DNA from: Sulfurospirillum cavolei | GTDB taxonomy: Bacteria; Campylobacterota; Campylobacteria; Campylobacterales; Sulfurospirillaceae | Reading direction: 5' to 3' | Assembly: GCF_001548055.1 (NCBI RefSeq) | Contig: NZ_AP014724.1 | Location: 248,001 to 312,000, forward strand | DNA: 64,000 nucleotides | Shown: positions 38,947-64,000 of the stretch, piece by piece | Layout: each line of letters starts with the position of its first letter | Numbering within the stretch: position 1 is the first letter of the stretch | The notes under the pieces: model-generated | Told to the model about the DNA's origin: nothing | The model's input: the letters and a program-made list of their open reading frames with translations, nothing else | The model's database searches: none | Made by a program: the position numbers and the translations under genes

Positions 38947-38992
38947 GTTCGCAAAACGCCCCTGCGAACGTTGTATAAATTAATATATAACT
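38947..38992. promoter_or_regulatory. Divergent control region of the sensor-sel and fdh operons
   Basis: Contains an inverted repeat GTTCGC (38947-38952) / GCGAAC (38964-38969) with an 11-nt spacer. Overlapping it is a 24-bp stretch at 38969-38992 (left half CGTTGTATAA, right half TATATAACT) that resembles a ModE box except for its last base. The first repeat may be the site of the response regulator. Both assignments are inference. Confidence 0.4.
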
Positions 38993-44707: not shown

Positions 44708-44716
44708 GGAGACACC

Positions 44717-45349: not shown

Positions 45350-46245
45350 AGAAACGATGGATAGTACTTTTAAGCACACTGCTAAGTATGTCGTCTCTTT
45401 ATGCCATTAGCGTGAGTCAATTCGATAGTCCGTTGTACGGAACGGCGATGCTCAATGCGATTCCCAATTACCATGCGTTTGGAGAAGTGTTTACGCTTCT
45501 TCAACGCGAATGGTTCTGGAAAGGCTTTTTGATCGCACTGTTTCTGGTTCCCGTTGCGGGAGGCATTCACTATTTACTGATCGGACCTAAAGTGTTTTCG
45601 CATCACGGAAAGAAGGTTTTTGCGTTTAGCGTTTTGATGCGCGTCATGCACAATCTTGCGGCCCTTTCGTTTTTAGTCATCGTGCCTACGGGCTTTGTTA
45701 TGGCATTCGGAGATTTTTTCGGCGGCGGTATGTTTGTGAGGATTTGTAAGAACTTACACGGTTTGGCAACACCCGTGTTTGCGATTACGGTTCTTCCGAT
45801 GATTATTGCTTGGATTAGGGATATGTTCCCTAATAACGACGACGTAAAATGGATGATGATCGTGGGCGGTTACCTCTCCAAAGAGAAAAAACCCGTCCCC
45901 GCAGGTAAGTTTAACGCCGGACAAAAAGCATGGTTTTGGATCGCGATGCCAGGCGGTATCGTGATGATTATTACCGGAGCGTTGATGTTCTTTTTAAACA
46001 AGGATCTCTCACCGGTTGCTACGATGTTGGGTATGAGCCAAATCGACCTGCTACGTCTCAGTGCGATCGTTCACAATATCTTAGGTATGGTCGTCGCTAC
46101 GTTCTTTATGGTGCATGTCTATATGGCGGCGATTGCCATCAAAGGTGCGATTCATTCGATGATCACGGGTTATAAAGAAGAAGAGGAAGTCGCCATCCTT
46201 CACAGCTCTTGGTACAAGAAGCTCAAAGAAGAGGGCAAGGTTTAA
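45346..46245 (+). CDS. fdhC: Formate dehydrogenase cytochrome b subunit FdhC
   Basis: At 299 residues it has an N-terminal signal or first helix, then four core membrane helices. His residues suited to haem b ligation are in LMRVMHNLAALSFLVI, NLHGLATPVF, AIVHNILGMV and MVHVYMAA. This is the family of FdnI-like gamma subunits, which reduce menaquinone. It overlaps fdhB by 4 bp and is followed by a strong terminator. Confidence 0.94.
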   Translation: MKKRWIVLLSTLLSMSSLYAISVSQFDSPLYGTAMLNAIPNYHAFGEVFTLLQREWFWKGFLIALFLVPVAGGIHYLLIGPKVFSHHGKKVFAFSVLMRVMHNLAALSFLVIVPTGFVMAFGDFFGGGMFVRICKNLHGLATPVFAITVLPMIIAWIRDMFPNNDDVKWMMIVGGYLSKEKKPVPAGKFNAGQKAWFWIAMPGGIVMIITGALMFFLNKDLSPVATMLGMSQIDLLRLSAIVHNILGMVVATFFMVHVYMAAIAIKGAIHSMITGYKEEEEVAILHSSWYKKLKEEGKV

Positions 46246-49211: not shown

Positions 49212-49973
49212 TCACTTATACCATACGACGATGCCTTTTTCCGCTTTGGTCGTAATATGCACTTTGTCTTGATCGCTGCTATTGGCTGCCAATAAACGTT
49301 TGATCACACTTTCTTGCGGCGTAATTTCGCGCCTTTGGAGTTGCTCGTACGCATACTTTTTTGCCTCTTCCGGCGTATAAATTTCCGTCCATGAGGTCTC
49401 AAAGAACGTGTGGTGATAACGCATCGATTTTTGTTCTAAACGATCCATAAACTGGCGGGTTTTAAAACACCCGTTAGAGCTACAGTCGTCTTCGATACCG
49501 TGCGCTTGCATGAGTGCATCGACGAAAAGGTTGGTTCGGTAAGAGCCCCAACCGACGTAAATACCCATCGTATCGGAAGATGCCATCATCTTTTCTATTT
49601 TTTCTTCCGAGTTGATCGCAGGCGTCATCGAGGCTAAAACGATGTCGTAGGTATTTTCGTCCGCGAACGCTTCCCAATCGCTTTGATGCGTTTGAATCGC
49701 TTCGTGAACGCCGTGTGCATGTGCGTCTTCGCGTAAAGCTTTTAACATACCGCTAGAGACGTCTACGGCAGTCACGCGCGCTCCTTTAAGTGCTAAAGGA
49801 ATGGCGATCGTTCCCGTTCCCGATCCGATGTCTAAAATGCTTTTATTTTCAAAGCAAACCCCTTTATCCTCACACCAGTTTAAAATAAATTGGACGTCTT
49901 TACGCATAGAATCGTCGTAAAAACGCGGATAGCGTTTTGCCATCGCTTCCCAAACAGCATTTTTCTCTTCCAT
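49212..49973 (-). CDS. SAM-dependent methyltransferase, paralogue 1
   Basis: 253 residues from ATG 49973 (CGGAG ribosome site). Class I fold: SILDIGSGTGTIAIPLALKGARVTAVDVS near residue 45 is motif I, and YDIVLASMTPAI is motif IV. It is clearly paralogous to the methyltransferase at 51.8-52.6 kb: both share WEAMAKRYPR/WDTMAERYPH, the QSDWE segment, and a Cys-containing NGCFK/GGCIK stretch. It is third in the likely operon methyltransferase 2 - radical SAM - methyltransferase 1. Substrate unknown. Confidence 0.83.
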   Translation of the reverse strand: MEEKNAVWEAMAKRYPRFYDDSMRKDVQFILNWCEDKGVCFENKSILDIGSGTGTIAIPLALKGARVTAVDVSSGMLKALREDAHAHGVHEAIQTHQSDWEAFADENTYDIVLASMTPAINSEEKIEKMMASSDTMGIYVGWGSYRTNLFVDALMQAHGIEDDCSSNGCFKTRQFMDRLEQKSMRYHHTFFETSWTEIYTPEEAKKYAYEQLQRREITPQESVIKRLLAANSSDQDKVHITTKAEKGIVVWYK

Positions 49974-50022
49974 GAAACTCCGTTTTTTTTGATGGGCACT
50001 CACGCCCTTTTCGTAACGCTTA

Positions 50023-51801
50023 TTATAGTCGATTTAAACGATGAGCGCGACTGGGTTTTGCAAACGAACGGTTGAGCATCGATGCTTCAAACGTTTGGCG
50101 ATAAAATTGTTTGTAAAAAAGCGTCGCTTCGTGATGAATATCGAAATGAAAAATCTCGGGATGGAGCATATCGGCGATATACATCAACCCCAAAATCCAC
50201 CGCGGGCTTCCAAAATCGAAACAGGGATAAGGGTGCGTATACACGCGATGTTGCTTGATTGCTTCGACGTCGATTTGCTCTTCGCGACAGGCGTCGTAAA
50301 ACGCTTCTAAAGGAGAGTCTAAAAACGAAGAGATAAAAATGACGTCCGGATTGAGTTTAAGTAGCTCTTCGCGCGTAATTTTGCGTCCCGGACGACCGTC
50401 TAAAACCAACGTTTTATTGAGGCTCATACCTCCTACCAATTCGACCAGTTGGTTTTCTAGGCGCGTATCTTCGAGTGCAAACAGAGGTTTACCCATCACG
50501 TAGTAAACGCGAGGGCGTTGCGTGACTTCTTTGAGGGCATCGACGATCGTATCGATTTTGTTGCGCATGTAAGCGATCAACGCATCGGCATTTTCTTCTT
50601 TTCCGACGATACGCGCTAAAAAAAGAATCGTAGCGGCATAATCGTCGAAATTTTGAATATCGACATGAAGCTTTTTAAGGCCGTTATCCGCTAAAAGTTC
50701 TTCCCAACAGCGTGTCACGTCGTGTTGATTGTCGACGCCGAGCGCGACCAGCGTTCCCTCGACGATCTCTAGTGCACGCGTCATCGGATAGCCGCCTTCA
50801 AAGCCCTCTTCGTCGAAAACGTTTTGAGAAGGAGCACCCGTAATCGCAAGCGTGTGAGCGCATTTCGTGCATCGACCGTCTTTAAAATGGTGGATGCGTC
50901 GTAGCTTGGATCCCATCGGTCCGTAAAAATCGCGTTCGAAGACAAGCGCACCGCAGGCAGGGCAATAGGTATGAATACATTCGCTTCCGGGGGAGTTAAA
51001 CAAATAAACGTAATCTAAACGGCTTTTGAGCGTTTGATAAAGCGTTTCCGATTCTTGAATGGAGGGTTCGTCCTCAAGTGCGGCATCGTCGATCGGAATA
51101 AAGCGCATTAATTGCAACGGTATGCTTTTCGAAAGCGTTGCCAAGTGCTCGGCAATGGCGACGACTTCGCTTTCATTGCCTTTTTTGTGAATGCACGCAA
51201 CTTCGACGTGAACGCCTTTTTGCACCAGATATTCGATATTGCGCAGTACCGGTTTATAGCTATTTGCGTGACAGCTACGGTAGATTGCGTTGCTTAGCCC
51301 TTTGAGCCCGATGTTGATAAAATCAAGGTAAGGGATTAACATGTCAAGCGTCTTCAACGTAAAATAGCCGTTACTCGAACAGCCCGTCACGAGTCCTGCT
51401 TGTTTGGCGAGTTTGCAAACTTCCAAAAACGTGAAAAACGATGCCAACGGGTCGTTCATCAAAAACGCGATGCCCGTGCAGTTAAGGCTTTGCGCTTTTT
51501 GAACGATTTGTTCAGGGCTCAGTACATGTAAAGCTTTGGAGTCCGTATCCATCTCTTTGGCGACGACCGTGGAGATGCAACCGTCGCAATCGAAATTACA
51601 ACCCGTGGTGCTGATTTGTAAAAATTTGGCACGCGGGTGAAAGTGCAAAACCGGCATCGTTTCCGCCGAAATAGGTGCCGTAACCAGATAGGTATGGGCA
51701 AAGCGTTCGTGAATCGCACCCTCGCGGCATTCGTAACGATGGCATTCCCCGATACTTCCTTCTTCCATATGACAGCGTCTTTCGCAAATAAAGCAGACCA
51801 T
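50023..51801 (-). CDS. AmrS-like radical SAM enzyme fused to a cytoplasmic binding-protein domain
   Basis: 592 residues from ATG 51801 (AAAAGG ribosome site; an upstream TTG is rejected). Residues 1-320 are an AmrS-like radical SAM enzyme. It has N-terminal CFICERRC, the cluster motif GCNFDCDGC (Cys68, 72, 75) and zinc ribbon CPAC (280-283) with CTKC (311-314). Residues ~335-575 are a class III periplasmic-binding-protein fold (RVYYVMGKPLFALED, LLKLNPDVIFISSF, DFGSPRWILGLMYIADML) related to the binding proteins in this cluster. There is no signal peptide, so the binding domain stays in the cytoplasm. It probably holds the imported ligand for radical chemistry. That fusion is unusual. Confidence 0.85.
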   Translation of the reverse strand: MVCFICERRCHMEEGSIGECHRYECREGAIHERFAHTYLVTAPISAETMPVLHFHPRAKFLQISTTGCNFDCDGCISTVVAKEMDTDSKALHVLSPEQIVQKAQSLNCTGIAFLMNDPLASFFTFLEVCKLAKQAGLVTGCSSNGYFTLKTLDMLIPYLDFINIGLKGLSNAIYRSCHANSYKPVLRNIEYLVQKGVHVEVACIHKKGNESEVVAIAEHLATLSKSIPLQLMRFIPIDDAALEDEPSIQESETLYQTLKSRLDYVYLFNSPGSECIHTYCPACGALVFERDFYGPMGSKLRRIHHFKDGRCTKCAHTLAITGAPSQNVFDEEGFEGGYPMTRALEIVEGTLVALGVDNQHDVTRCWEELLADNGLKKLHVDIQNFDDYAATILFLARIVGKEENADALIAYMRNKIDTIVDALKEVTQRPRVYYVMGKPLFALEDTRLENQLVELVGGMSLNKTLVLDGRPGRKITREELLKLNPDVIFISSFLDSPLEAFYDACREEQIDVEAIKQHRVYTHPYPCFDFGSPRWILGLMYIADMLHPEIFHFDIHHEATLFYKQFYRQTFEASMLNRSFAKPSRAHRLNRL

Positions 51802-51812
51802 GAAGCGACCTT

Positions 51813-52595
51813 TTAAATATGTTTGGGGCAAGAAGAGGGGTATTTGGAAAACAACACCATCCCTTTTTCGGCTTGCGTTTCGATTTTGACCGTTTCCTCG
51901 TGCATAAAATCGCGAATAATCGCATCGACTTTGCGCTCATCGGGTGAGAGATTTTTTCGGGCAAGCTGCTCCGCGGCATACGTTTTAGCTTCGTCGTACG
52001 TGTAGGTCTCTTCCCATGCGGTTGTGAAAAATTCGTAACTATATGTGAGCTCTTTCGTGTCGAGGTAATGCATAAAATCGGCAACTTTGATGCAGCCTCC
52101 CGACATTTTTTCGGGGGCATCGTGCGCTTGCATCAACGCTTCGAGAAAAGCGTTGGTTTTGTAGCGTCCCCAACCGACATAAAGCCCCATCGCATGGGTT
52201 GCGCTTAACATTTTATCGATATGGCTTTCTTGGGAAATAGCAGGCGTCATAGAAGCAAGAACGATGTCGAAGGTTTGCGTGAGCGGAAAACTTTCCCAAT
52301 CGCTTTGATACGATGTGAGATAGGCACGAAGCTTGAGAGCTTCGGCATCGCTCTTGAGGGCATCTAACATACCGCGTGAAAGGTCAATCGCGGTGACGCG
52401 AGCCTTTTCAAGGGCTAAAGGGATCGAAACCGTACCGGTTCCGCAGCCGATGTCCAAAAGAGAGCGGCCGTTAAAATCGAGCCCTTGACTTTTTGCCCAT
52501 GCAAGAACGCGTTGCACGTCCTTTTGCATCGCAGGATCGTCATAATGCGGATAACGCTCCGCCATCGTATCCCAAAACGAGTGATTGAATTCCAT
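51813..52595 (-). CDS. SAM-dependent methyltransferase, paralogue 2
   Basis: At 260 residues motif I is SLLDIGCGTGTVSIPLALEKARVTAIDLS and motif IV is FDIVLASMTPAIS. It is paralogous to the gene at 49.2 kb and is first in the same transcription unit, 11 bp before the radical SAM fusion gene. A strong ModE-box candidate overlaps its promoter. It may methylate or demethylate a ligand or chelator handled by this cluster; substrate unknown. Confidence 0.85.
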   Translation of the reverse strand: MEFNHSFWDTMAERYPHYDDPAMQKDVQRVLAWAKSQGLDFNGRSLLDIGCGTGTVSIPLALEKARVTAIDLSRGMLDALKSDAEALKLRAYLTSYQSDWESFPLTQTFDIVLASMTPAISQESHIDKMLSATHAMGLYVGWGRYKTNAFLEALMQAHDAPEKMSGGCIKVADFMHYLDTKELTYSYEFFTTAWEETYTYDEAKTYAAEQLARKNLSPDERKVDAIIRDFMHEETVKIETQAEKGMVLFSKYPSSCPKHI

Positions 52596-52612: not shown

Positions 52613-52636
52613 CGCTATATTGTTGAAACTATAACG
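52613..52636. promoter_or_regulatory. ModE box upstream of the methyltransferase/radical SAM operon
   Basis: A 24-bp imperfect palindrome with left half CGCTATATTG and right half CTATAACG. Its length, half-sites and even the central TTG match the E. coli modA operator layout. It overlaps the -10 region for the minus-strand gene at 52595, so molybdate-loaded ModE would repress. Confidence 0.75.
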
Positions 52637-52684: not shown

Positions 52685-53707
52685 TTAGAGACTAAAATAG
52701 GTTTTAAGCTCTTCGTCCCGCAGTTCTACCTGAAAAAAGAGACGATAAAACGCTCTTACTTTTTCCTGAATGGAGTAAGGATAACGCGTCGGGTAGAGTT
52801 TGCTCGCAATCCAGTGTGCTCCGATAATGCGCATAAAAGAGGGCGGTCTGTCCGTCCAGTTAAAAGGTGTTTTCGGTACTAAATAGACACGCTTGTTTTG
52901 AACGGCTTTGAGCATTTGCCATTTGGGATCGGTAAACACCGTTTTGAAGAAGACGGGGCTTTGCACGATGATGACTTCGGGATCGTAAATCAAGACTTGC
53001 TCAAAACTGACCTCTTGCATTCCGATGACGCTGTTTTGAACGCATTTGTGCACCAAGTTGCCGCCGGCTAAAGCTAAAGGTTCGGAGTGAAACGAAACGT
53101 CGCATTCGGTTTGAAGCCCTAAATCACCCTCGGCGTAATAGACTTTCGTGCGTTCTGCCAAAGGAACGGAGCGGACGAAGTGCTGAAGCTCTTCAAGGTA
53201 CGTTTGCGCCATATCGGCAAGCGCGTTAGCGCGTTCTTCTTTTTGAAGCACTTTTCCTAACATCCGAAACACTTCCGGATAGCGCGTCGAATCGTCGATG
53301 TTGACTTTAAGGGAGGGAATGGAAATGCGCTCTATATCTTTAGCCGTTTTTTCGTTAAGCAAAGGCGTGTCCCACGTGATAATCACTTGAGGATGCGCCG
53401 CAACGATGGCTTCGAGATTGGGGATATTATTTCCGTGCCAACCGCCTAAAATAGGAAGTTTCATAAAGCGTTCGCTTAAAAATCGATCGCCGTTTTGGTT
53501 GTCTTGGTTGGTTTGAGGAAAATTAACGCCGATGAGCGATCGGTCGTCGATGACGTATAGCATAAACGTAATCGGAGGCGCAGAACCGTAAACGCGCGTC
53601 ATATTTTCGGGTAAAACCACGGGTTTGCCGTTAATATCGCTAAACGTACGATCGGCATTTGCCGACAAGAAGCTTATCAACGCTAATAAAGCTAAGAGGT
53701 ATCGCAT
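52685..53707 (-). CDS. Class III periplasmic binding protein 1
   Basis: 340 residues from ATG 53707 (AAAGGAG). Signal peptide ~19 residues (LLALLALISFLSANA). The fold is that of BtuF/FhuD/MolA-type binding proteins with a rigid helix. Distinctive conserved stretches shared with the two other copies are YYAEGDLGLQTECDVSFH, VHKC, YDPEVIIV, and FNWTDRPPSFMRIIGAHW. It should receive a metal chelate or oxyanion from the outer membrane receptor and pass it to an ABC permease. It starts 1 bp after the globin gene ends. Confidence 0.87.
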   Translation of the reverse strand: MRYLLALLALISFLSANADRTFSDINGKPVVLPENMTRVYGSAPPITFMLYVIDDRSLIGVNFPQTNQDNQNGDRFLSERFMKLPILGGWHGNNIPNLEAIVAAHPQVIITWDTPLLNEKTAKDIERISIPSLKVNIDDSTRYPEVFRMLGKVLQKEERANALADMAQTYLEELQHFVRSVPLAERTKVYYAEGDLGLQTECDVSFHSEPLALAGGNLVHKCVQNSVIGMQEVSFEQVLIYDPEVIIVQSPVFFKTVFTDPKWQMLKAVQNKRVYLVPKTPFNWTDRPPSFMRIIGAHWIASKLYPTRYPYSIQEKVRAFYRLFFQVELRDEELKTYFSL

Positions 53708-53708
53708 C

Positions 53709-54284
53709 TTAGCTCCTTTCGTCAAAATAAGAACGTATCGACTCAAACGGATAGCGTTTCATAGCGTCCATCGTCGTACGGCGATTGACGAGTCGCATCG
53801 ACAAGGCCTCGACCCATTCCCAAATTTCGGGAAGCAGTTCTTTGGGAAAACGGGTTATTTTTAACGCTTTGCGAAAACACATCAGCCAAATATCGCGTCC
53901 GATTTCGGTGATTTCAAACGGAAAATGGCGTTCGCGCAGCTTGGGATGACCTTGCGTTGAAGTATACAAGGTTTCGCCTCCGAGCATTTGCACGAAGAAA
54001 TCTTCGATTTTAAGCGCGGCGGCTTGAAATTCATTCTCGTCTTGAGGATAAAGCGATGCGATTTTGCTTTCGCGGATCAGGTCGTGATGGACTTGAACCA
54101 GCTTTCGAATCGCCTCTTCGCCTAAGCTTAAGAAGATGTGATTGGAAGGAAAATAGACTTCGGGGTAAATGACGTCGATCTTGGGATGACCGCGTCTTGG
54201 TTTTTCATCCGCTTTAGGAAAGGGAGCCTTGGTATCGCATTCGCTAAACAGTTGTACGTTGACACCGTCAATCGTCACGGGCAT
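53709..54284 (-). CDS. Group-2 truncated haemoglobin 1, paired with a binding protein
   Basis: At 191 residues the C-terminal ~140 form a trHbO-type globin. It shows LGGETLYTSTQGHPKLRERHFPFEIT, with proximal His120, and IGRDIWLMCFRKAL, plus a distal-site region HHDLIRES. The first 45 residues are an extension with two Lys/Pro-rich turns. No signal peptide, so it is cytoplasmic. Haem binding is likely; an enzymatic role in ligand release or redox change is inference. It is first in a two-gene unit with binding protein 1 behind a ModE-like box. Confidence 0.85.
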   Translation of the reverse strand: MPVTIDGVNVQLFSECDTKAPFPKADEKPRRGHPKIDVIYPEVYFPSNHIFLSLGEEAIRKLVQVHHDLIRESKIASLYPQDENEFQAAALKIEDFFVQMLGGETLYTSTQGHPKLRERHFPFEITEIGRDIWLMCFRKALKITRFPKELLPEIWEWVEALSMRLVNRRTTMDAMKRYPFESIRSYFDERS

Positions 54285-54340
54285 TTTTTCTCCTTATGAA
54301 GTGTCGTAGAGCTTTGAATACAGAGCCTTCGGCACGATTT

Positions 54341-54364
54341 CGATATATTTGTAAAAGTATAATG
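54341..54364. promoter_or_regulatory. ModE-like box upstream of the globin 1 operon
   Basis: A 24-bp stretch, left half CGATATATTT and right half GTATAATG, has the ModE-box spacing with one base off in the final ACG. On the minus strand it contains TATACT, a usable -10, 60 nt before the globin start codon. Confidence 0.55.
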
Positions 54365-54475
54365 GTAACGGAAAACAAGAGAGAAAGCAAGCTATGGAAT
54401 GATTAAAAAAGAATATTTTACCGATAATGCAACATGAAGATACGTACTAACAAGAAGGCGTATAACGTAAAAACG

Positions 54476-55249
54476 TTAAACGCCGACGATAATTTGAGAT
54501 GCTTTGAAAAATGCATAGGCCTCATCGCCTACTTTAATGCCTAAGCTGTCGAATGTTGCGTGAGGAATTGTTGCCGTAATCGTACTTAAGCTCGGTAATT
54601 CGAGCGTGACTTCCGTACCGGAAGCGTCGCTTAAAACTTGTACGACTTTGCCGTGCAAAAGATTTTCACATGTAGAGGTCGGTTTGGTTTTAGAAAGGGT
54701 AACCGAACTGGCTTTTAAAATCGCAATAATGGAATCACCGACGCAAAGTCCCAAATCGGCGTAACTGTTATGCGTAATGGAAGCGTAGAGTTTTTCCGCG
54801 TCTTTGATCGTAATCTCGAGCAAAACGTTGACCGTGTCTTCTTTGATGTCGGTAACGATACCCGTGAGTTGATTGCGTGCGCTGAGTTTTAAGGAGAGCC
54901 GACTGAGGGCTTTAACGATCGTGCCCAAATCTTCGCTATCGGAGAAGAGGTCTAAAAATTGTCGGTGTTTTTGCTCTAAGGTATGAAACGCTTGAATAAT
55001 TTCTTCGCCTTTTGCCGTCAGAAGCGTTCCGCCGCCGCCTTTGCCGCCGCTGGTTTTTTGCACTAAGGGCTCGTCGGAGAGGTTATTCATCGCATCAACC
55101 GAATCCCAAGCGGCTTTATAGCTCATTTTCATCGCTTTTGCGGCGGCATGAATCGAGCCGTGATGTTTAATGCGTTCCAATAACTCGATACGTCCTCGAC
55201 CGAGAAAATTTTTATCGCTTTTTTTGATCCAAAGACGGGCTTCTAACAT
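54476..55249 (-). CDS. modE: ModE-family molybdate-responsive regulator
   Basis: At 257 residues the N-terminal winged helix is ERIKHHGSIHAAAKAMKMSYKAAWDSVDAMNN, with the SGGKGGGGTLLT wing typical of ModE. Two Mop/TOBE domains follow (SARNQLTGIVTDIKEDTVN from ~123; ENLLHGKVVQVLSDASG from ~193). ModE binds molybdate or tungstate in the Mop pair and then binds DNA. It is divergent from exbB and shares a control region containing a ModE box. Its place within the TonB/binding-protein cluster is the main clue to that cluster's purpose. Confidence 0.94.
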   Translation of the reverse strand: MLEARLWIKKSDKNFLGRGRIELLERIKHHGSIHAAAKAMKMSYKAAWDSVDAMNNLSDEPLVQKTSGGKGGGGTLLTAKGEEIIQAFHTLEQKHRQFLDLFSDSEDLGTIVKALSRLSLKLSARNQLTGIVTDIKEDTVNVLLEITIKDAEKLYASITHNSYADLGLCVGDSIIAILKASSVTLSKTKPTSTCENLLHGKVVQVLSDASGTEVTLELPSLSTITATIPHATFDSLGIKVGDEAYAFFKASQIIVGV

Positions 55250-55378
55250 CGGTATTTCCTTCTACGGGTGTAAGTCAAAATGATCGGTACAGTATAGCAC
55301 AAGGGAAGCAAAAAGGGAAATGTGGTCATTTATTGAGCAAGATGATGCTACTTAGTGTATAAAAAATAGTATTAATGA

Positions 55379-55409
55379 CGTTGTATTTAGATAAATATTA
55401 CGTTATAAT
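55379..55409 (+). promoter_or_regulatory. ModE box and promoter upstream of exbB
   Basis: The 24-bp stretch at 55379-55402, left half CGTTGTATTT and right half AATATTACG, fits the ModE-box spacing. It is followed two bases on by -10 TATAAT at 55404-55409. The box thus covers the -35/spacer region of the long plus-strand operon. The leader from there to exbB is about 100 nt. Confidence 0.65.
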
Positions 55410-55513
55410 GCAAGGTTGTTTCTTGTTGTCGGCTCTTTTTCGCTCGCTCGTTATGTAATATAAGTACATATCGAAAGAGCGGAAGAGAGGCTTTTTGGAA
55501 AGGAAAATTGGGA

Positions 55514-55960
55514 ATGTTAAGTGAAAAGTTTTTATCGTTTGCGTTACTTGGAATCGATCCGGTATTGTGGGTTTTAGTCGCCATGAGCGTCATCGCTTTG
55601 GGCGTGATGATCGAGCGGGCGTTGATTTTTTGGCAAATTGAAAAATATTATAAAGAGATGGATGCGTACACGCTCAAACTCAGCCTTGACGCAAGGCTCG
55701 GAATTTTGGCGACGTTCGGAAACAATGCCCCGTTTATCGGGCTTTTCGGTACGGTGTTAGGCATTATTCAAGCATTTCACGTCATCGGAAATAACCACGC
55801 TTTTGACGTTCAACCTATTATGCAAGGTATTTCCGAAGCCTTGATCGCAACGGCTACGGGGCTTTTTGTGGCGATTCCTTGCGTGGTGGCTTACAACTAC
55901 TTTATCCGACGTGCGAAAACGATTATGATCAAACATGAGGCGTACTGCCATGGCAAGTAG
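55514..55960 (+). CDS. exbB: ExbB (MotA/TolQ/ExbB proton channel)
   Basis: 148 residues from ATG 55514 (AAAGGA upstream). Three membrane helices, with the family signature FIGLFGTVLGIIQAF and ISEALIATATGLFVAIPCVVAYNYF. This is a short Campylobacterota-type ExbB. With ExbD it uses proton flow to energise TonB. It overlaps exbD by 11 bp. Confidence 0.94.
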   Translation: MLSEKFLSFALLGIDPVLWVLVAMSVIALGVMIERALIFWQIEKYYKEMDAYTLKLSLDARLGILATFGNNAPFIGLFGTVLGIIQAFHVIGNNHAFDVQPIMQGISEALIATATGLFVAIPCVVAYNYFIRRAKTIMIKHEAYCHGK

Positions 55961-56354
55961 CCTTGAGGTCGAAAACGAGATTGCCGACATCAATATGACG
56001 CCTTTTGTCGACATCGTGCTAGTGATCTTGGTTATTTTTATGGTCACCGCAACGTTTGTAACGCAAGGCAAAATTCCTCTGAATCTCCCGCAGGCAAGCA
56101 GCGCCGAAAAACAAAAAGAGGAACAAAAACCGATCGTCATCTCTTTGGATAAAGAGGGCGTTTTTTATTACGAAGACGTCGCGATAGAGCCCGATGCGCT
56201 CGAAGCGAAGATTGCCGCATTGGATGCTACTGATCGTACGATTATTCTTCGTTCCGATGCGCAAACGCCCTTTGAGTACGTCGTAAAAATTATCGATACA
56301 TGTAAAAAATACCGTATTACGTCGTTTGCGATTCAAACCGCGGATCGCCGATAA
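55950..56354 (+). CDS. exbD: ExbD
   Basis: 134 residues from ATG 55950 (GAGG nine bases upstream). One membrane helix follows the signature ADINMTPFVDIVLVILVIFMV, with the proton-carrying Asp in PFVD, and a periplasmic domain ends LRSDAQTPFEYVVKIIDTCKK. Partner of ExbB. A slightly earlier ATG (55935) lacks a ribosome site. Confidence 0.93.
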   Translation: MASSLEVENEIADINMTPFVDIVLVILVIFMVTATFVTQGKIPLNLPQASSAEKQKEEQKPIVISLDKEGVFYYEDVAIEPDALEAKIAALDATDRTIILRSDAQTPFEYVVKIIDTCKKYRITSFAIQTADRR

Positions 56355-56385
56355 AATTAGACATCTTGCAAAACTCATTTTGCAA

Positions 56386-56470
56386 GAAGAAAAAGTACCA
56401 AGGTGCGTGGGCTTTGCGCCGAAGAAAACGCAGTGTTAACGTAGTCTTTAGAGCTTTGCTTTAAAGACGT
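56386..56470 (+). repeat. Structured intergenic repeat, diverged copy
   Basis: Carries the same pieces in the same order as the tandem repeats at 58171-58378: AAAGTACCAAGGTGCG, GCAGTGTTAACGTAG, and a TTTAGAGCTTTGCTTTAAA hairpin followed by GACGTG. It fills the gap between exbD and globin 2. Confidence 0.55.
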
Positions 56471-56510
56471 GTCAAAAGTTTTGAAAGAACTCTAATGAAA
56501 GGAAATAGCT

Positions 56511-57059
56511 ATGTGTCAGTCCCTCGAAAACGCTTTGATTCAAGACGTTAAACGCTCCAATGCCTCTCAAAAATTACGTTGGAGCGCAAGCAAAGAGCAT
56601 ATGCGTTTTCCGCCCATCGTGAAGCCCGAAGAAAATTTTTTAAAAGCCGTAGGCGAAGAGAATCTCCTTCGTATGGTGATTCATCATCATCGGCTACTTC
56701 AAAAAAGCGAAATTGCTTACATGTATCCGATCGATGAAGAGGCTTTTATGGAAGGCGTGCATAAAGCGGCGCATTTTTTTATTCAAGCTTTAGGCGGCGG
56801 TAACGTTTACACAAAAGCCTACGGTGCGCCTTCGATGTGCAAAACCCACTCACCTTTTGCCATCGATGCCCATGCGCGCGAAGTGTGGCTGAGGTATTAT
56901 GCGCAAACGCTTCAAGAGATAGCATTTCCTAAAGCGTATTTGGAGCAGTTTTGGACGTGGATCGAGACGTTTTCGCTGCGTATGATTAACCGCGCCGCTC
57001 CCAATACGTATGCAAAACGGCTTTTTTTTCATGACGTGCAAAAAGAATACGGATGGTAA
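56511..57059 (+). CDS. Group-2 truncated haemoglobin 2, paired with a binding protein
   Basis: At 182 residues the globin part shows LGGGNVYTKAYGAPSMCKTHSPFAID, with proximal His113, and AREVWLRYYAQTLQ. The WIETFSLRMINR end matches globin 1 (WVEALSMRLVNR). A 40-residue N-terminal extension differs from globin 1. It has no signal peptide. A Cys precedes the haem ligand by three residues. It overlaps the start of binding protein 2 by 7 bp, so the two are translationally coupled, mirroring the globin 1/binding protein 1 pair. Confidence 0.82.
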   Translation: MCQSLENALIQDVKRSNASQKLRWSASKEHMRFPPIVKPEENFLKAVGEENLLRMVIHHHRLLQKSEIAYMYPIDEEAFMEGVHKAAHFFIQALGGGNVYTKAYGAPSMCKTHSPFAIDAHAREVWLRYYAQTLQEIAFPKAYLEQFWTWIETFSLRMINRAAPNTYAKRLFFHDVQKEYGW

Positions 57060-58093
57060 CGGCGATGTCTTTTTATCGATTTTCGATTCGCTTTTTAATC
57101 CTTTTTTTCGGCTTGGGCGAACTTCTTTTAGCGCGCAGTATCGTCGATATGAGCGGACAGACGCTCGAAGTTCCCGATACGATAAGTAAACTCTACGCCT
57201 CGTCGCCGCCTTCGACGTATATGCTCTACACGATCGATCCTTCGTTGATCGTGGGCTTAAATTTCGATCACGCTAAAGGCAATAACGAATCGTCGAATAT
57301 GCTTGACCCTCGTTTTACGTCGCTTCCGGTGATCGGAGGTTTGCAAGGCGGAGCCAATAGCATCAATCGCGAAACGCTTTTGGCGTTGCACCCAGACGCC
57401 ATCATCTCGTGGAATACCGACGCTTCCAGCGGTCTTGCGGCATATTTATTCCAAAGCAGTCACATTGCGACGATTAACGTCAATTTGGAAAGTATCGACG
57501 ATCTCGCACGAGCGTATCGTTTTTTAGGTGAATTGCTGGATAAAAAAGAGCGTACGGAACCTTTGGCACTCTATGCCCAAGAGGTGACGCGCCAAACAAG
57601 AGCCTTGGTAGAACGTCGCGTTTCGAAACGCCCTGTCGTTTATTATGCCGAAGGTACGGACGGTTTGGCGAGTGAATGCGACAGCTCTTCACATTACGAA
57701 GCGATCAAAGTCGCCGGCGGTATCAATCCCCATTTGTGTCAACCAAGCGGCGGTAAAGGAATGGAGAAAGTGACGCTCGAACAGGTCATTTTGTACAATC
57801 CGGACGTCATTATCGCACAGGAAAAAGAGTTTGTTCAAAATGTTCAAAACGATCCGAGATGGCGTTTTGTTGCGGCGGTACAAAACAAAAGAGTCTATTT
57901 GGTTCCGAAAAAACCGTTCAACTGGATCGATAGGCCGCCTTCGTTTATGCGCCTTTTAGGGCTTCAATGGCTGACGCACGTTTTATACGACGAACCGAAT
58001 GCCTCGGAGTTTGAGACGCGTATGCAAGAGTTTTACCGCTTGTTTTTAAGAATCGATCTAAACCAAACGCAACGCCAAGCGATTTTGGATTAA
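57053..58093 (+). CDS. Class III periplasmic binding protein 2
   Basis: At 346 residues it has a signal peptide (FLILFFGLGELLLA). It carries YYAEGTDGLASECDSSSH, NPHLC, YNPDVIIA, and FNWIDRPPSFMRLLGLQW, as in copies 1 and 3. ATG 57053 overlaps the globin gene; ATG 57065 is an alternative. The closest relatives inside the window are the other two copies, which suggests duplication with possible division of ligand range. Confidence 0.86.
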   Translation: MVTAMSFYRFSIRFLILFFGLGELLLARSIVDMSGQTLEVPDTISKLYASSPPSTYMLYTIDPSLIVGLNFDHAKGNNESSNMLDPRFTSLPVIGGLQGGANSINRETLLALHPDAIISWNTDASSGLAAYLFQSSHIATINVNLESIDDLARAYRFLGELLDKKERTEPLALYAQEVTRQTRALVERRVSKRPVVYYAEGTDGLASECDSSSHYEAIKVAGGINPHLCQPSGGKGMEKVTLEQVILYNPDVIIAQEKEFVQNVQNDPRWRFVAAVQNKRVYLVPKKPFNWIDRPPSFMRLLGLQWLTHVLYDEPNASEFETRMQEFYRLFLRIDLNQTQRQAILD

Positions 58094-58170: not shown

Positions 58171-58378
58171 AAAAGCACCGAAGGTGCGCGGGCACTCTGC
58201 CGAAGAGAACTCAGCGTTAGCGTAGCTTTTAGAGCTTAGCTTTAAAAGCGTGATAAAGATCAAAAAGCACCGAAGGTGCGCGGGCACTCCGTCTTGGAGA
58301 ACTCAGCGTTAGCGTAGCGTTTAGAGCTTAGCTCTAAAGGCGTGATAAAGATCAAAAAGCACCGAAGGTGCGCGGGCG
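58171..58378 (+). repeat. Tandem structured intergenic repeats (two full units and a partial third)
   Basis: Units begin at 58171, 58262-58263 and 58354-58355 and are about 91 nt long. Each has GCACC-gaa-GGTGC, a CAGCGTTAGCGTAGC stretch and an inverted repeat CTTTTAGAGC/GCTTTAAAAG. The third unit ends early. The 319-bp gap between binding protein 2 and binding protein 3 holds nothing else. Such hairpins may process the mRNA or adjust expression along the operon. Confidence 0.75.
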
Positions 58379-58412: not shown

Positions 58413-59453
58413 ATGGCCTCAAAATTATATCTTTGGATGATAGGAGCGTGTATGGGTGTGAGCGTATCGGCGTACGGTGTCGTGGATATGGCGGATAGGA
58501 ACGTAACAATCGATAAAACGATCCACAAAGTCTACGCCCCTTCTCCCTATGGAAGCTATGCTTTATATGCGATGGCTCCTTCGATGATGAGCGGTTGGGT
58601 GATGAGCATTGCAGATAAAAACAAACCGTATTTAGACCCGATTGCCAGAGATTTACCCGTTCTAGGCTCGATTAGCGGACAAGGACAAACCTCGGCAATC
58701 GAAAGCATGTTAAGTCAAAAACCCGATTTGATCTTAATGTGGTCGGCTTCACCGGTAAGTCCTATGTCGCAAACGAATCAAAAGCTAGAGCAACTCGGTG
58801 TTCCTTACGTTTACGCCGTTGCGGAAGATATGAATGCCTATCCGAAGGTGTTTCGCTTTTTGGGTGAAGTGTTGGATAAGCGTGAACGAGGCGAAAAGCT
58901 TGCCACTTTGATGCAAACCGTTTTAGACGACGTTAAAACGGCCGTCGATAAAGCGACGTATAAGCCTAAAGTCTATTATGCGGAAGGAACGGATGGACTT
59001 TCAACCGAATGCGACGACTCGATTCACGTACAGATTTTGAAATTATTGGGCGATGTGAACGTCCATCAATGCCATACTTCTAACCATAAAGGCTTTGAGA
59101 AAGTGACTTTGGAGCAGATTCTTCTTTATGATCCGGACGTTATCATTACCCCTGAAGAGATTTTTTGGAACAGCGTTCAAAATCATCCGCAATGGAAAGA
59201 GGTGAGAGCGGTGCGCGAAGGTCGCGTGTATCTTATTCCTTCGACGCCGTTCAACTGGTTTGATCGACCGCCCTCTTTTATGCGTTTTATCGGCTTACAA
59301 TGGCTAGCCAACCTTTTATACCCGAATGAATATCCCATTGATATCCAAGAAGAAACCAAACGTTTTTATGCCAATTTTATGCACGTCTCATTAGACGATG
59401 CCTCTCTTAACGTCATCTTATCACCAAAGTCTTTGGCAAAGAAAAAGGAGTAA
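58413..59453 (+). CDS. Class III periplasmic binding protein 3
   Basis: At 346 residues it has a signal peptide (MASKLYLWMIGACMGVSVSA) and AGAGGGAAG before the ATG. Conserved pieces are YYAEGTDGLSTECDDSIH, NVHQC, YDPDVIITP, and FNWFDRPPSFMRFIGLQW. It sits directly before the receptor gene and may be the main partner of that receptor. The Cys/His set shared by all three copies could bind metal or form a disulfide. Confidence 0.87.
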   Translation: MASKLYLWMIGACMGVSVSAYGVVDMADRNVTIDKTIHKVYAPSPYGSYALYAMAPSMMSGWVMSIADKNKPYLDPIARDLPVLGSISGQGQTSAIESMLSQKPDLILMWSASPVSPMSQTNQKLEQLGVPYVYAVAEDMNAYPKVFRFLGEVLDKRERGEKLATLMQTVLDDVKTAVDKATYKPKVYYAEGTDGLSTECDDSIHVQILKLLGDVNVHQCHTSNHKGFEKVTLEQILLYDPDVIITPEEIFWNSVQNHPQWKEVRAVREGRVYLIPSTPFNWFDRPPSFMRFIGLQWLANLLYPNEYPIDIQEETKRFYANFMHVSLDDASLNVILSPKSLAKKKE

Positions 59454-59454
59454 T

Positions 59455-61515
59455 ATGTCAGTTTTTAAGCCGCGTTTTGGTTCGCTCGTCGTAGCGTCCT
59501 GTTTGTTTCCTTTATCGCTCGTTGCCGCCGATACGGTCTATCAGTTAGATCCGGTGAGTACGACGGAAAATACCGAAGGTACGCCGCGCGTCGTGCGTGA
59601 AGACCTCAAACCCGATAGCATCGTCAATCCCAATAAAGTCGAAAGTAGTTCTCAAGCGGGCGTTGAGATTTTTACGCAAGAAGATATTCGGGATTTGGCA
59701 CCTAAAGATATGTTCGATCTTTTGAGCAAAGCAACGGGCGTGGACGTCACGTACCACGGACGTAAAAGTCCTTATTTTGTTAACGTGCGCGGCGGCGGTT
59801 CACTGACGTATATTATCGACGGGGCGATTTTACCTTCCACCGCCAATAAGATTCTTCAAAAAATACCGATGAATGCGATCGAAGAGATTCAAATCGTTCG
59901 CGGTTCTTCTTCTTTGACGTTAGGTCCTTCGATTAATATCGGCTCTTCTAATTCCGGCTCGGGCGTTAACGTCGGTTATATTATTATCAAAACCAAACAA
60001 CCGAAAAAAACGGAAGCGATTTTACAAGGTTCCGTGGAAAAAACGGAGAGTTTCCCTACGGCAAATAAAGAGAGTCTTTATTTGGGAACGCGCATCGATA
60101 ACGAAGAAGGAAGTGCTTTTGTCGGCGGATTGGTTTCGGGGATGCATCGCGATAGTACCGATCGCTATTTTGACGGACAAACGGCCGATGCGAGAATGGC
60201 AAACGCCGGATTTTCTTACGGCAAACTCAGCGGTAAAATTATGGCATACAAAGACGAAGGGCGTTTTGAAATGCAACGCGGCGTTACCGTGACGGGTGCA
60301 TTAGATAACTCAAAATGGTATTACGATCCGATTACCACGGAAATCGTTAGCGGCGATGCGACCGTTCAATGGAACGAAAACCACGCGACTTTGGCATCGC
60401 TTTTCTCCACGCGCTACGAGCACACCGAGTATAGCAATGAATCGTTTGCAACGACGGCAACGGGCGTTGCTAAACCGTATTGGGAAGAGACCGAGGGTGT
60501 TAGTTTACGTCACAATATCCGTTACGGCGATACGACCGTGATGTTAGGCGTGCAATCGACCGACGACGAGGGATTCGGAGCCAACAATAGTGCGAGCTAT
60601 AACCGCTTCAAAGTAAACGTGCTAGGTTGGTCGGGATCGGCGGAACAAAAACTCTTTGACGGGGCGTTGATTTTAGACGGCGGTTATAGAGAAGATCAAA
60701 AACATATTGATTATTCAAGTACGAGTGCTTCGAAAAACAGTGCCAACAACGATGAAGATATGGCACCGGCTAAAATCTACGCCTTCGGTGCCAAATGGAA
60801 TATCACGTCGATTTATGCCTTAAGTGCGCGCTATTTCAATGCCGATCAAGGAACGATGGGCGATTTTGACGTCAAAGCACAAACGGGAACGTTACATGCC
60901 GAAAAACAAGAACGTTTCGAAACCAGTTTGGAAGCCAATTACGACAAGATGTTTACGCCTATGTTTACATGGTTTAAAGTGAAAATCGATAATGAAAAAA
61001 TCGCCAGCAACACGACGTACGTCCAAAACGGTCAAACCTACTATTATTATACGGAATCCGATACGGATCGCGACGGAATCGAGCTTTTGTTAAAAGGATA
61101 TTTTTCAACGGGTACGAGTTATAAAGCCAGTTATACGCGTCTTTTGAATTACGATTCGATTAGCAGTACCGGCGTTACGACGAATAATATCGGCGGCTCG
61201 AATCCAAGAGACCTTTACACGCTTCAAGTAACGCAAGAATGGGATAAATACCGTGCCAACGTATCGCTTCAAAAAGAGAGCGGATGGCATACGTCCACCT
61301 CGGCGATGGGGACGGCGTACGATGTTAATTTAGGCGATTTTACGCGGGTTGACGCCAATATCATGCGGGATTTTAAAACCGCCGGAAATACGACGACGAC
61401 GTTAATGCTTTATGCTAGAAACATTACCGACGAGAAGTATGCGACGCGTTATACGACGGGGTATTACTACGATCGCGGTCGTGTCGTCGGTCTTGACGTC
61501 ACGCTGAAATATTAA
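59455..61515 (+). CDS. TonB-dependent outer membrane receptor
   Basis: 686 residues from ATG 59455 (AAGGAG). A signal peptide ends near ASCLFPLSLVAA. A TonB-box-like DTVYQLDPVSTT follows, then a plug domain (FTQEDIRDLAPKDMFDLLSKATGVDVTYHG; PYFVNVRGGG; IEEIQIVRGSSS), and a barrel that ends in GLDVTLKY with the terminal aromatic. It imports a ligand too large or scarce for porins. There is no FRAP/NPNL haem-receptor motif. ExbB, ExbD and TonB are encoded around it. Confidence 0.93.
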   Translation: MSVFKPRFGSLVVASCLFPLSLVAADTVYQLDPVSTTENTEGTPRVVREDLKPDSIVNPNKVESSSQAGVEIFTQEDIRDLAPKDMFDLLSKATGVDVTYHGRKSPYFVNVRGGGSLTYIIDGAILPSTANKILQKIPMNAIEEIQIVRGSSSLTLGPSINIGSSNSGSGVNVGYIIIKTKQPKKTEAILQGSVEKTESFPTANKESLYLGTRIDNEEGSAFVGGLVSGMHRDSTDRYFDGQTADARMANAGFSYGKLSGKIMAYKDEGRFEMQRGVTVTGALDNSKWYYDPITTEIVSGDATVQWNENHATLASLFSTRYEHTEYSNESFATTATGVAKPYWEETEGVSLRHNIRYGDTTVMLGVQSTDDEGFGANNSASYNRFKVNVLGWSGSAEQKLFDGALILDGGYREDQKHIDYSSTSASKNSANNDEDMAPAKIYAFGAKWNITSIYALSARYFNADQGTMGDFDVKAQTGTLHAEKQERFETSLEANYDKMFTPMFTWFKVKIDNEKIASNTTYVQNGQTYYYYTESDTDRDGIELLLKGYFSTGTSYKASYTRLLNYDSISSTGVTTNNIGGSNPRDLYTLQVTQEWDKYRANVSLQKESGWHTSTSAMGTAYDVNLGDFTRVDANIMRDFKTAGNTTTTLMLYARNITDEKYATRYTTGYYYDRGRVVGLDVTLKY

Positions 61516-61588: not shown

Positions 61589-62200
61589 ATGGATGTAGAA
61601 CACTACGATCGACAATCGCGAACGGTTAAAAAACCTTTGTACACGTACTATGCGCAAAAAATTAAAGATCAAACGCGGATGATCGAAGGCAAATGTTTAG
61701 ACGTCGGCGCGTGCGGCGGTTATTTGGGACTGGAATTGGCAAAAATGACCAACCTACATGTCACGTTTTTCGACCTCAATGCGGAGGCTTTGGAAAAAGC
61801 GGCTTTGCATCTGGTCGAGGACGGTTTAGAAGAACGCGGAGCGACGCTTGTGGGCGACGTTCACGCGATTCCTTTAGAAGACGAGACGATGGATTTGATT
61901 ATTTCCAGAGGTTCGATGCCCTTTTGGGAAGATCCGGCTTTAGCATTGCAAGAGATTTACCGTATCTTGAAAAAAGGCGGTACGACGTTTGTCGGCGGAG
62001 GCAAAGGAACGCCCGAAATTAAAGCGCAAATTATCGAAAATATGCTTGCCGAAGGTCAAGAAGTCGATCTTGAAGCAATGGATAAAATGCACGGGGACGG
62101 GATGAAACGCGATTACGATGCGTTGCTGAAAAGTAAAGGCATTGAAAATTTCGTGATTCATCGCGCACAAGACGGTATTTGGATACAGATGTGGAAATAA
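61589..62200 (+). CDS. SAM-dependent methyltransferase 3
   Basis: This 203-residue class I methyltransferase (Methyltransf_11-like) has motif I KCLDVGACGGYLGLELAKM, FFDLNAEAL as the acidic strand, and LIISRGSMPFWEDPALALQEIYRIL. It is not close to the two paralogues upstream. It resembles small enzymes encoded next to metal-chelate uptake genes; the substrate is unknown. Its end overlaps the tonB start region. Confidence 0.83.
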   Translation: MDVEHYDRQSRTVKKPLYTYYAQKIKDQTRMIEGKCLDVGACGGYLGLELAKMTNLHVTFFDLNAEALEKAALHLVEDGLEERGATLVGDVHAIPLEDETMDLIISRGSMPFWEDPALALQEIYRILKKGGTTFVGGGKGTPEIKAQIIENMLAEGQEVDLEAMDKMHGDGMKRDYDALLKSKGIENFVIHRAQDGIWIQMWK

Positions 62201-62904
62201 GTGTCTCCAAAAAGCGTACATTTTCATCGATAGCCGTTTTCGGAACCGTTCTTGTGCATGCGTGTTTGGTGTATGCTTTGGCGGCGATGCCCAAAGTGTT
62301 TGAGTCTGCGGAAGAGAAAGCCGACATCGTGCATATTAGCCTGATCGACGACGAAAAACCTTCCGCACCGCCTAAACGCGAAGAGCCTCAACCTCCGATT
62401 GAGCAGCCAAAAATTCCGAACGAAGTTCCCAAAGAACAACCAAAGCCTCAAAAAAAACCCGTCGTTGCTCAAAAACCTATTGCCAAAACCGCTCCTTCTC
62501 CCGAGCCTTCTCCTATCGTAGAAGAGACGGTAACGCCGCCTCCGCCTTCTTCGCATCAGGCGCTATCCGCTTTAGAGCAACCCTCTCAAGCCTCACGTGC
62601 GTCTCAAGCCAACGAAGATGCCTTGTCACGGTATTTAGCAAAAGTTCGAAAAGCGATCCAAGCCAATCTTCAATACCCGATGATGGCAAAAAAGATGGGT
62701 ATCGAAGGCGAAACGACGGTGCAATTTAGCATTCAAGCCGACGGTACGGTCGATAAGCGAACGCTAAAAGTGTTGCACTCTAGCGGGAAAAAGGTTTTAG
62801 ACGCCAATGCCCTCAATGCCGTCATTGACGCATCGCCGTTTGAAAAGCCTCCGCAAGAGGAGCTTTTTATTAGCGTTCCCGTCGTTTTTAAATTACGTAC
62901 GTAA
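62179..62904 (+). CDS. tonB: TonB energy-transducing protein
   Basis: Up to 241 residues. N-terminal membrane helix (IAVFGTVLVHACLVYALAAM) with the conserved His, then a proline/lysine-rich spacer (about 65-125). The TonB C-terminal domain is YLAKVRKAIQANLQYPMMAKKMGIEGETTVQF. The start is TTG 62179 or GTG 62191; both overlap the methyltransferase gene. It links ExbBD to the receptor at 59.5 kb. Confidence 0.92.
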   Translation: MDTDVEISVSKKRTFSSIAVFGTVLVHACLVYALAAMPKVFESAEEKADIVHISLIDDEKPSAPPKREEPQPPIEQPKIPNEVPKEQPKPQKKPVVAQKPIAKTAPSPEPSPIVEETVTPPPPSSHQALSALEQPSQASRASQANEDALSRYLAKVRKAIQANLQYPMMAKKMGIEGETTVQFSIQADGTVDKRTLKVLHSSGKKVLDANALNAVIDASPFEKPPQEELFISVPVVFKLRT

Positions 62905-62918
62905 AAGGATTATGAAGT

Positions 62919-63950
62919 ATGAAATGGGGAATTTTTTGTCTGTTTGAACGGTATGAAACCGATGCATGCGAGGCGATTCATGCACAGATGCGTTTAGTGG
63001 AGCAAGCCGAAAAAGAAGGCTTGGAAGAGGTCTGGTTCGGGGAGCATCATTTTAATGATTTTAGTATCTGTCCTTCTCCTACGGTTTTGCTTGCCAACGC
63101 GTGTGCGAGGACGCAAACGATTCGTTTAGGGTGTGCGGGCTTTTTAGCACCTTTTTACGATGCGATACGCTTAGCCGAAGATGCGGCGATGTTGGATATT
63201 TTAAGTCGCGGACGGTTTAATTTGGGACTCGCCAAAGGTGCGTTCGCGCCCGATTCCAAGCATTTCAATACGACGACCGAACAGCTACGCCCTAAACTTT
63301 TGGAGTGTGCGCAAGCGGTAGATTCACTCTTAAATACCGGTGCTCATCCCGTTAGTTTTCACGGAGACTTTTTTGATTTTACGGAAGTAGACGTCGAGCC
63401 GAAAACCTTGCAAAGCTCCATTCCGACCTATATCGCAACGTTTGCCTCGGAAGAGACGATCGCGTTTGCGGCACGCAAAGGCTGGGGTTTGATGCTCTCT
63501 CAGGGCGTCGATTTGGACGAGTGCGAACGCGTGAGTCGCTATTATGCTTCGATCGCCGGATATGAGCCCGAGATCGTTTTACTGCGTACGTTTTACGTGG
63601 CACAAAGCTATGAAGAAGCCTTTGCCAAAGCACGTCCGGCGATCGATCATTTCGTCAAATCCATGCGCGCGGCATCGTCTTTTAACAAATCTCCGCAATT
63701 TGATCAAACGCGCTATCAAGCGTTGATTCAAGAACGCAACGTCTTTTTCGACGGTCAGAAATTCTTTGAAAACGGCATTATCGGCGATGCGCAACGCTGC
63801 ATCGATACGTGTTTGACGATTCAAAAACGTTTTCCGAAAGTACATGTCGCTTTAAAGCTTTTGGGAACGAATGAAAACGAAAACGCCCGTTTGCTTCACG
63901 ATTTTACGCGGCTTGTACGTCCGTTCGTCGATAAGGCGCATCATGGTTAA
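62919..63950 (+). CDS. Luciferase-like (LLM) flavin-dependent monooxygenase
   Basis: This 343-residue TIM-barrel oxidoreductase has LEEVWFGEHHFNDFSICPSPTVLLA, IRLGCAGFLAPFYDAIRLAEDAAMLDILSRGRFNLGLAKG and IPTYIATFASEETIAFAA. LLM proteins use reduced FMN to oxidise organic substrates, sometimes cleaving C-S, C-N or siderophore-like bonds. In this operon it may modify the imported ligand. In an organism that lives mostly without oxygen, its oxidant is a puzzle. Confidence 0.88.
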   Translation: MKWGIFCLFERYETDACEAIHAQMRLVEQAEKEGLEEVWFGEHHFNDFSICPSPTVLLANACARTQTIRLGCAGFLAPFYDAIRLAEDAAMLDILSRGRFNLGLAKGAFAPDSKHFNTTTEQLRPKLLECAQAVDSLLNTGAHPVSFHGDFFDFTEVDVEPKTLQSSIPTYIATFASEETIAFAARKGWGLMLSQGVDLDECERVSRYYASIAGYEPEIVLLRTFYVAQSYEEAFAKARPAIDHFVKSMRAASSFNKSPQFDQTRYQALIQERNVFFDGQKFFENGIIGDAQRCIDTCLTIQKRFPKVHVALKLLGTNENENARLLHDFTRLVRPFVDKAHHG

Positions 63951-64000
63951 AACGTCTCTTTTGTTTGCGATTGCTTTCGTGCTTTTGATCGCCTCGTTTT
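63943..64000 (+). CDS. Probable FecCD-type ABC permease, N-terminal fragment
   Basis: ATG 63943 overlaps the end of the monooxygenase gene by 8 bp; the visible part reads MVKTSLLFAIAFVLLIASF, one hydrophobic helix. FecCD/BtuC permeases begin like this and are the expected partner for the class III binding proteins upstream. With 19 residues visible, the identification leans on context. Confidence 0.55.
   Translation, partial: MVKTSLLFAIAFVLLIASF

Follow-up and report, generated by a model that had tools for sequence, protein, structure and literature searches.

Two truncated globins encoded in a 64,000-nt stretch of the Sulfurospirillum cavolei genome (contig NZ_AP014724.1, positions 248,001 to 312,000; hereafter the window) are likely to be cytoplasmic haem subunits of a ModE-controlled, TonB-powered importer of molybdenum (or tungsten) in potential nitrogen fixers. 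This degree of confidence applies to the system as a whole, and not to the chemistry of the globins. Globin 1 (53709..54284, minus strand, 191 aa) and globin 2 (56511..57059, plus strand, 182 aa) match PF01152 with 72.7 bits (cut-off 21) and 50.3 bits, respectively, are 34% identical, and are the only matches to this family in the 2.70 Mb genome. The gene that immediately follows each globin encodes a periplasmic binding protein (PBP) of family PF01497. PBP1 (52685..53707, minus), read from its likely ATG start at 53707, begins 1 bp past globin 1, the mechanical open reading frame (ORF) opening upstream at TTG 53746; the start of PBP2 (57053..58093, plus; 37% identical to PBP1) overlaps globin 2 by 7 bp. 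The two globin/PBP pairs flank modE and exbBD, one pair per side. An earlier note on this DNA had described both junctions and the proximal-histidine motifs GHPKLRERH and CKTH, and these descriptions hold; the proximal His of both globins falls in the same alignment column as its counterpart in group II globins.

We compared the globins with proteins of solved structure. The closest was Hell's Gate globin IV (HGbIV) of Methylacidiphilum infernorum (4nk1/4nk2), with 181 bits versus 61 for the next protein. Comparison of a predicted globin model (mean pLDDT, the predicted local distance difference test score, of 73; low model quality at residues 107-120, near the proximal His) with the HGbIV structures gave Z scores of 17.8 and 18.5, the next structure reaching 11.8. 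Campylobacter Ctb ranked 35th (Z 9.5), a rank that is not informative on membership. HGbIV is described as carrying a pre-A loop and a helix I, with two conserved histidines, His(B9) and His(B10), positioned to bind phosphate (PMC4476040), and the PDB title of 4nk1 gives the protein as phosphate-bound.

To place the globins in their phylum, 397 Campylobacterota genomes were surveyed with a profile built from the two proteins. Matches were found in 127 genomes, of which 27 carried a match of ~147 bits or more; we refer to these as cluster-type globins, the next scores being 140 and down. Cluster-type globins occur in no fewer than four coded Campylobacterota families. A His-His pair at B9-B10 (His66-His67 in globin 1, within IHHHR in globin 2) was present in 40/40 cluster-type ORFs, two of which are pieces of one split gene, and in 0/36 ordinary globins from the same phylum (20 in a first set plus the 16 next-highest-scoring). 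All 36 ordinary globins have Tyr at B10, the residue that faces bound O2 in ordinary truncated-globin relatives. Just below the ~147-bit line the His-His pair is still present in an ORF of genome G007 and in a further ORF of G389. The proximal His (His120 in globin 1) was kept in 37 of the 40 cluster-type ORFs, the exceptions being two fragments and one Tyr (L086), and a Trp at what we take to be position G8 (Trp133 in globin 1) in 39. Arg occupied each of positions 164 and 168 in 36/37 cluster ORFs, where ordinary globins mostly have Trp and Thr. Among intact cluster ORFs of the related G-coded loci and of S. cavolei itself, 40-77 residues precede the column of globin 1 residue 50 (28 in L086) and 17-38 follow from residue 168 on (30 in L086); the corresponding values for ordinary globins are 21-85 and 1-14, the long N-termini being open frames without a sure start.

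In a phylogenetic tree, the cluster-type globins, HGbIV, the G007 protein and a Paraburkholderia protein were set apart from the 20 ordinary globins with support of 100/99, although the G007 and Paraburkholderia branches are very long. We conclude from these sequence comparisons that the window globins belong with HGbIV, in a clade separate from the ordinary group II truncated haemoglobin (trHbO) type. That they are ordinary trHbO-type globins that merely sit in a transport operon would agree with the shared Pfam family, the conserved Trp G8 and the proximal His, but is very improbable given the separate clade, the residue at B10 and an operon kept in 27/27 genomes. The earlier note had named membership among ordinary trHbO/Ctb proteins and a pairing confined to this strain as outcomes contrary to its proposal; the globins are instead distinct, and the pairing recurs in other genomes.

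Two further features of these globins were observed. A Cys recurs, by eye, in the pre-A extension of most cluster-type globins (ECDT, ACGTKPF, NCDITQKF, MCNG), and is a possible metal or redox ligand. Two cluster-type globin genes are apparently broken, at L062 11347-11721 (a short ORF, genome G056) and L084 9408-10090 (two overlapping ORFs, G281), which look like decay or assembly error.

The genomic context of the globins is strongly conserved. A cluster-type globin was accompanied by its PBP family, a FecCD permease and an ATPase in 27/27 genomes. We inspected neighbourhoods of up to 20 kb around the globin in 26 of these genomes (S. cavolei being treated apart); because some stretches are cut at these limits, gene absences may be overcounted. 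PBP, FecCD permease and ATPase genes were each present in 26/26, a TonB-dependent receptor in 24 by BLAST and in one more (G250) by Pfam, TonB in 21, a methyltransferase in 21, ModE in 19 and a luciferase-like flavin monooxygenase (LLM) in 16. The gene next downstream of 39 globin ORFs was a binding protein in 12 cases, LLM in nine, TonB in nine, a TonB receptor in six (two by Pfam) and ModD in one; the other two cases were opposite-strand and unlabelled. Since a PBP follows in only 12/39 cases, the globin/PBP pairing is one arrangement of a conserved operon. The coupling that the earlier note had emphasised thus extends far beyond one strain, to 27 genomes, but what stays constant is the import operon as a whole and not the adjacent binding protein.

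Several of these genes connect the operon with molybdenum. The gene adjacent to globin 1 encodes a ModE-like regulator (54476..55249, minus) with an HTH_1 and two TOBE/Mop domains, which scored 103.8 bits against TIGR00637 (cut-off 98.5) and also exceeded the cut-off of TIGR00638. We searched for the palindrome CGTTATAT-N8-ATATAACG, which we take to be the pattern of the E. coli ModE site, allowing up to 3 mismatches. Four ModE-box-like sites were found in the window, versus 0.29 in shuffled sequences: upstream of globin 1 (54341..54364; 3 mismatches, same place in relatives), between modE and exbB (55379..55402; 2 mismatches), upstream of methyltransferase B (52613..52636; 2 mismatches), the latter two also seen in relatives' loci, and upstream of a molybdenum formate-dehydrogenase region (38969..38992; 2 mismatches). 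Permuted palindromes gave a mean of 1.0 match in the window but reached 5; the count alone is therefore weak, and the evidence lies in the places of the sites. Across 29 related loci, which share ancestry, there were 96 boxes, whereas 60 permuted palindromes averaged 5.4 matches and reached 25 at most.

Genome-wide, 13 sites had at most 2 mismatches. Three are near methyltransferases, two near a TonB receptor, two near formate dehydrogenase, and one each near a Mop gene, modE/exbB, a nifA-like gene (451 bits, cut-off 529) and a PhsA-like molybdoenzyme (662 bits, cut-off 694; frame cut); the remaining two, near a NUDIX gene and a gene for a 165-aa protein, are of unclear relevance. The globin operon is probably under ModE control, judging by the regulator and the placement of these sites. 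Elsewhere in the genome, a second unit (L134 6604-10850; C1:352.6-356.9 kb) combines a 1-mismatch ModE-box-like site with a TonB receptor, a methyltransferase and a PF01497 protein. Two paralogues of methyltransferase B (42-43%) begin 27-28 bp past the centres of boxes with 1-2 mismatches (L131; C1:1607.3 and 1612.7 kb), and apparently represent an uncharacterised methyltransferase family under molybdenum control.

The transporter itself points to the same metal. A FecCD/MolB-like permease ORF starts at 63871 (plus) and continues outside the window (63871..64000 within it; C1:311871-312962 in full); the permease, an ABC ATPase and a second TonB receptor occupy C1:311.9-315.9 kb. With permease and ATPase genes at and just past the window end, the possibility that the binding proteins are orphans without a transporter was ruled out. 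The best solved match of the permease was MolB (HI1471, 2nq2_A), with 223 bits versus 177 for FhuB, the next best. For the ATPase, HI1470 (MolC) was top among stand-alone import ATPases, two long plant/animal ABCB chains scoring as high. The PBPs matched 4pag (a Sulfurospirillum protein, 77% identical to PBP1), 4ovk and 4hn9 best, followed by MolA (HI_1472) with 78-94 bits, ahead of YiuA, BtuF, and haem and siderophore proteins of known ligand. In a fold comparison with PBP1, MolA was fourth (Z 27.1), at ~22% identity. MolBC-A is described as a molybdate importer whose MolA binds molybdate and tungstate (PMC4031551). In relatives, genome G361 has ModA (166 bits, cut-off 62.5) at a distance of 1.7 kb from the globin, ModD overlaps the globin in G363 (188 bits, cut-off 178.85), and a PBP2 relative (36%) in the alphaproteobacterium Indioceanicola adjoins ModA and a TOBE gene. 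These similarities make molybdenum or tungsten, as molybdate/tungstate or a chelate of it, the most probable ligand.

The organisms that carry the operon are mostly potential nitrogen fixers. We found nifH in 74/397 genomes, comprising 25/27 of those with a cluster-type globin versus 49/370 of the others (Fisher p 3e-18, uncorrected for kinship). The association with ordinary globins was weaker (34/100), and 25/27 exceeds it (p 3e-8). S. cavolei has nifH followed by ORFs that read, by eye, as nifD and nifK. Plasmid records gave 17 matches for globin 1 and two for globin 2, mostly ordinary globins by name and coverage. On a Paraburkholderia plasmid, a globin-like protein, DUF2325, LLM, modB and modA follow nifQ; this globin-like protein is without the His-His pair and without the proximal His, and its kinship to the cluster globins is unsure because its branch in the tree is very long (2.55). 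An 81% copy of it follows nifQ on a second plasmid, with no LLM or mod gene listed nearby. On a Methylococcus plasmid, a gene annotated as group II truncated hemoglobin stands beside nifH. The best plasmid match of LLM (Methylovirgula) has no globin or molybdenum transporter listed beside it, and a molybdopterin oxidoreductase lies 8 kb away.

A number of observations weigh against a molybdenum importer with globin subunits. Allowing up to 3 mismatches, the whole genome holds only 33 boxes versus 22 for a reversed control. The nearest PBP matches, 4pag, 4hn9 and 4ovk, come without a known ligand, and PBP2 relatives in two other Alphaproteobacteria that we inspected have no adjoining molybdenum genes. 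A nifH gene is not required, being absent from 2/27 cluster-globin assemblies, and 49 nifH genomes have no cluster-type globin. Phylogenetic dependence among the genomes inflates all counts. Finally, 50/77 genomes with this PBP family have no cluster-type globin; therefore, transport does not need the globin, in agreement with a role as sensor or acceptor or in protection.

Other such observations would favour an iron(III)-siderophore or haem uptake island, in which the globin senses O2 or receives haem and molybdenum is only the regulator's concern. The top-scoring models for TonB receptor 2 are those of haem/siderophore receptors, none of them reaching its cut-off; the PBP fold neighbours, among them siderophore and haem binders, include the iron- and nickel-binding proteins YiuA (Z 25.5) and CeuE (Z 24.8); and in Acidithiobacillus ferrooxidans both iron and molybdenum were assigned to a globin-bearing cluster reported to have a Fur box before its globin gene gloA (PMC2631029, PMC2621215). 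The permease, however, matches MolB best and not FecC, FhuB, HmuU or BtuC; ModE is in the cluster and ModE-box-like sites are on it; relatives have ModA and ModD as neighbours; and no haem-degrading or haem-storage gene was recognised among the labelled genes of the operon. The haem uptake reading is weakened by these findings, and we regard an iron or haem island as improbable beside a molybdenum (or tungsten) importer.

In such an importer, the two outer-membrane receptors, driven by TonB-ExbBD, would take in molybdate or a molybdenum chelate, which PBP1-3 would hand to the MolBC-type permease/ATPase for delivery to the cytoplasm, where the globins would act. What the globins do there is a more tentative matter. 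Handling of O2, NO or redox chemistry at molybdenum delivery, including the shielding of molybdenum delivery for nitrogenase, is the role that we rank first, though with limited confidence. If, as the earlier note proposed, the globins carry out redox or O2/NO chemistry on what is imported, the substrate would probably be molybdate/tungstate or a chelate of it. It is doubtful, yet conceivable by analogy with HGbIV, in which the Tyr-to-His change at B10 is accompanied by a phosphate site, that the B9-B10 pair takes the imported molybdate or tungstate beside the haem iron, making the globin a first molybdenum acceptor, a redox partner or a molybdenum/O2 sensor toward nitrogenase. A molybdate- or tungstate-binding role for a globin was not met in the open-licence literature searched. 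O2/NO handling near the metal supply of nitrogenase is at least as likely as oxyanion binding.

A further role, slightly less probable again, would join the globin to LLM: the flavin monooxygenase may use O2 and reduced flavin to cleave the metal chelate that is brought in, the globin supplying or limiting O2. The rest of the probability falls to some other function. The globin-LLM junction is always a 4-bp overlap (9/9 cases, among the 39 globin ORFs), LLM is in the locus of 16/26 related genomes and of S. cavolei, and the Paraburkholderia globin-like protein, DUF2325 and LLM stand together between nifQ and modBA. Yet LLM was missing from the inspected surroundings of the globin in 10/26 genomes (some stretches being cut), and in the Paraburkholderia homologue the proximal His is lost. 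LLM scores under every NCBIfam cut-off, so that it cannot be assigned a substrate.

The earlier note had also read the mirrored pairs as a duplication around modE-exbBD, a claim that did not find support. The free globin tree separates the two Sulfurospirillum globin groups, and PBP1 and PBP2 do not come out as sisters in the PBP tree; a forced grouping of the globins was not rejected by the approximately unbiased test (p-AU 0.155). These results neither establish nor exclude a pairwise duplication shared by globins and PBPs, and they do not show that a globin and its binding protein were recently duplicated in inverted orientation.

The remaining genes of the window's cluster are arranged around these pairs. 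On the plus strand, ExbB-like (55508..55960; PF01618) and ExbD-like (55935..56354; PF02472) genes precede globin 2, and PBP2 is followed by PBP3 (58413..59453; PF01497; 39% to PBP2), TonB-dependent receptor 1 (59398..61515; plug domain recognised, PF07715), class I S-adenosylmethionine (SAM) methyltransferase C (61589..62200; PF08241), TonB (62179..62904; PF03544, with TIGR01352 above cut-off) and LLM (62919..63950; PF00296, 171 bits). On the minus strand, PBP1 is followed by class I SAM methyltransferase B (51813..52595; PF13649), a radical-SAM protein fused to a PF01497 domain (50023..51831; PF04055 + PF01497) and class I SAM methyltransferase A (49212..50003; PF13649). The fusion, a single 602-aa ORF joining an AmrS/PflA-like radical-SAM domain to a binding-protein domain, is odd because one domain would normally be found in the cytoplasm and the other in the periplasm. 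Between PBP2 and PBP3 (58175-58371) lie three near-identical terminator-like hairpins (GCACC-TTC-GGTGC, minus strand) at 92 bp spacing. The formate-dehydrogenase operon is present in two copies, one in the window (41843-46245) and one at L137 (C1:1164-1168 kb); the two agree in ORF lengths and, for four ORFs, over the N-terminal 45 residues.

For HGbIV-type globins, a crystal structure with an unusual oxyanion-binding pocket is available, but an assigned function was not found in the open-licence papers searched. The Campylobacterota context offers a candidate workplace, namely probable molybdenum import operons, presumably ModE-controlled, of mostly nifH-bearing organisms. It also suggests a TonB-powered molybdenum route where ModABC is the textbook route for uptake in bacteria. 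An association of a truncated globin with iron-molybdenum (Fe-Mo) uptake and nif is already in print (Acidithiobacillus, 2008); the HGbIV identity, the ModE-box pattern, the MolABC-type transporter and the spread in Campylobacterota were not found in the open-licence papers searched.

Among known systems, HGbIV shares the pre-A N-terminal extension, the C-terminal extension and the His-His pair at B9-B10, but its crystal holds phosphate and not molybdate, and no link to molybdenum uptake was found in the passages on HGbIV that were consulted. The group II truncated haemoglobins share the Pfam family, the proximal His and Trp G8, whereas the window-type globins have B10 His for Tyr, long extensions and a clade of their own. 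As in MolABC of Haemophilus influenzae (HI1470-1472), the type II permease and ATPase match MolB and MolC best and the PBPs are related to MolA; the window system differs in being TonB-coupled, in having globins, methyltransferases and LLM, and in that its molybdenum binding is a prediction. In A. ferrooxidans, the truncated-globin gene gloA is reported to belong to a 13-gene Fe-Mo transport cluster beside nif, and its product was proposed to be an O2 sensor (PMC2631029). That cluster also has two outer-membrane receptors, a TonB system and several binding proteins, and differs in its ModA-like protein, its Fur box and the O2 sensing proposed there (PMC2631029, PMC2621215). The Sulfurospirillum cluster, likened to it by description, has instead three PF01497 proteins, ModE and ModE-box-like sites.

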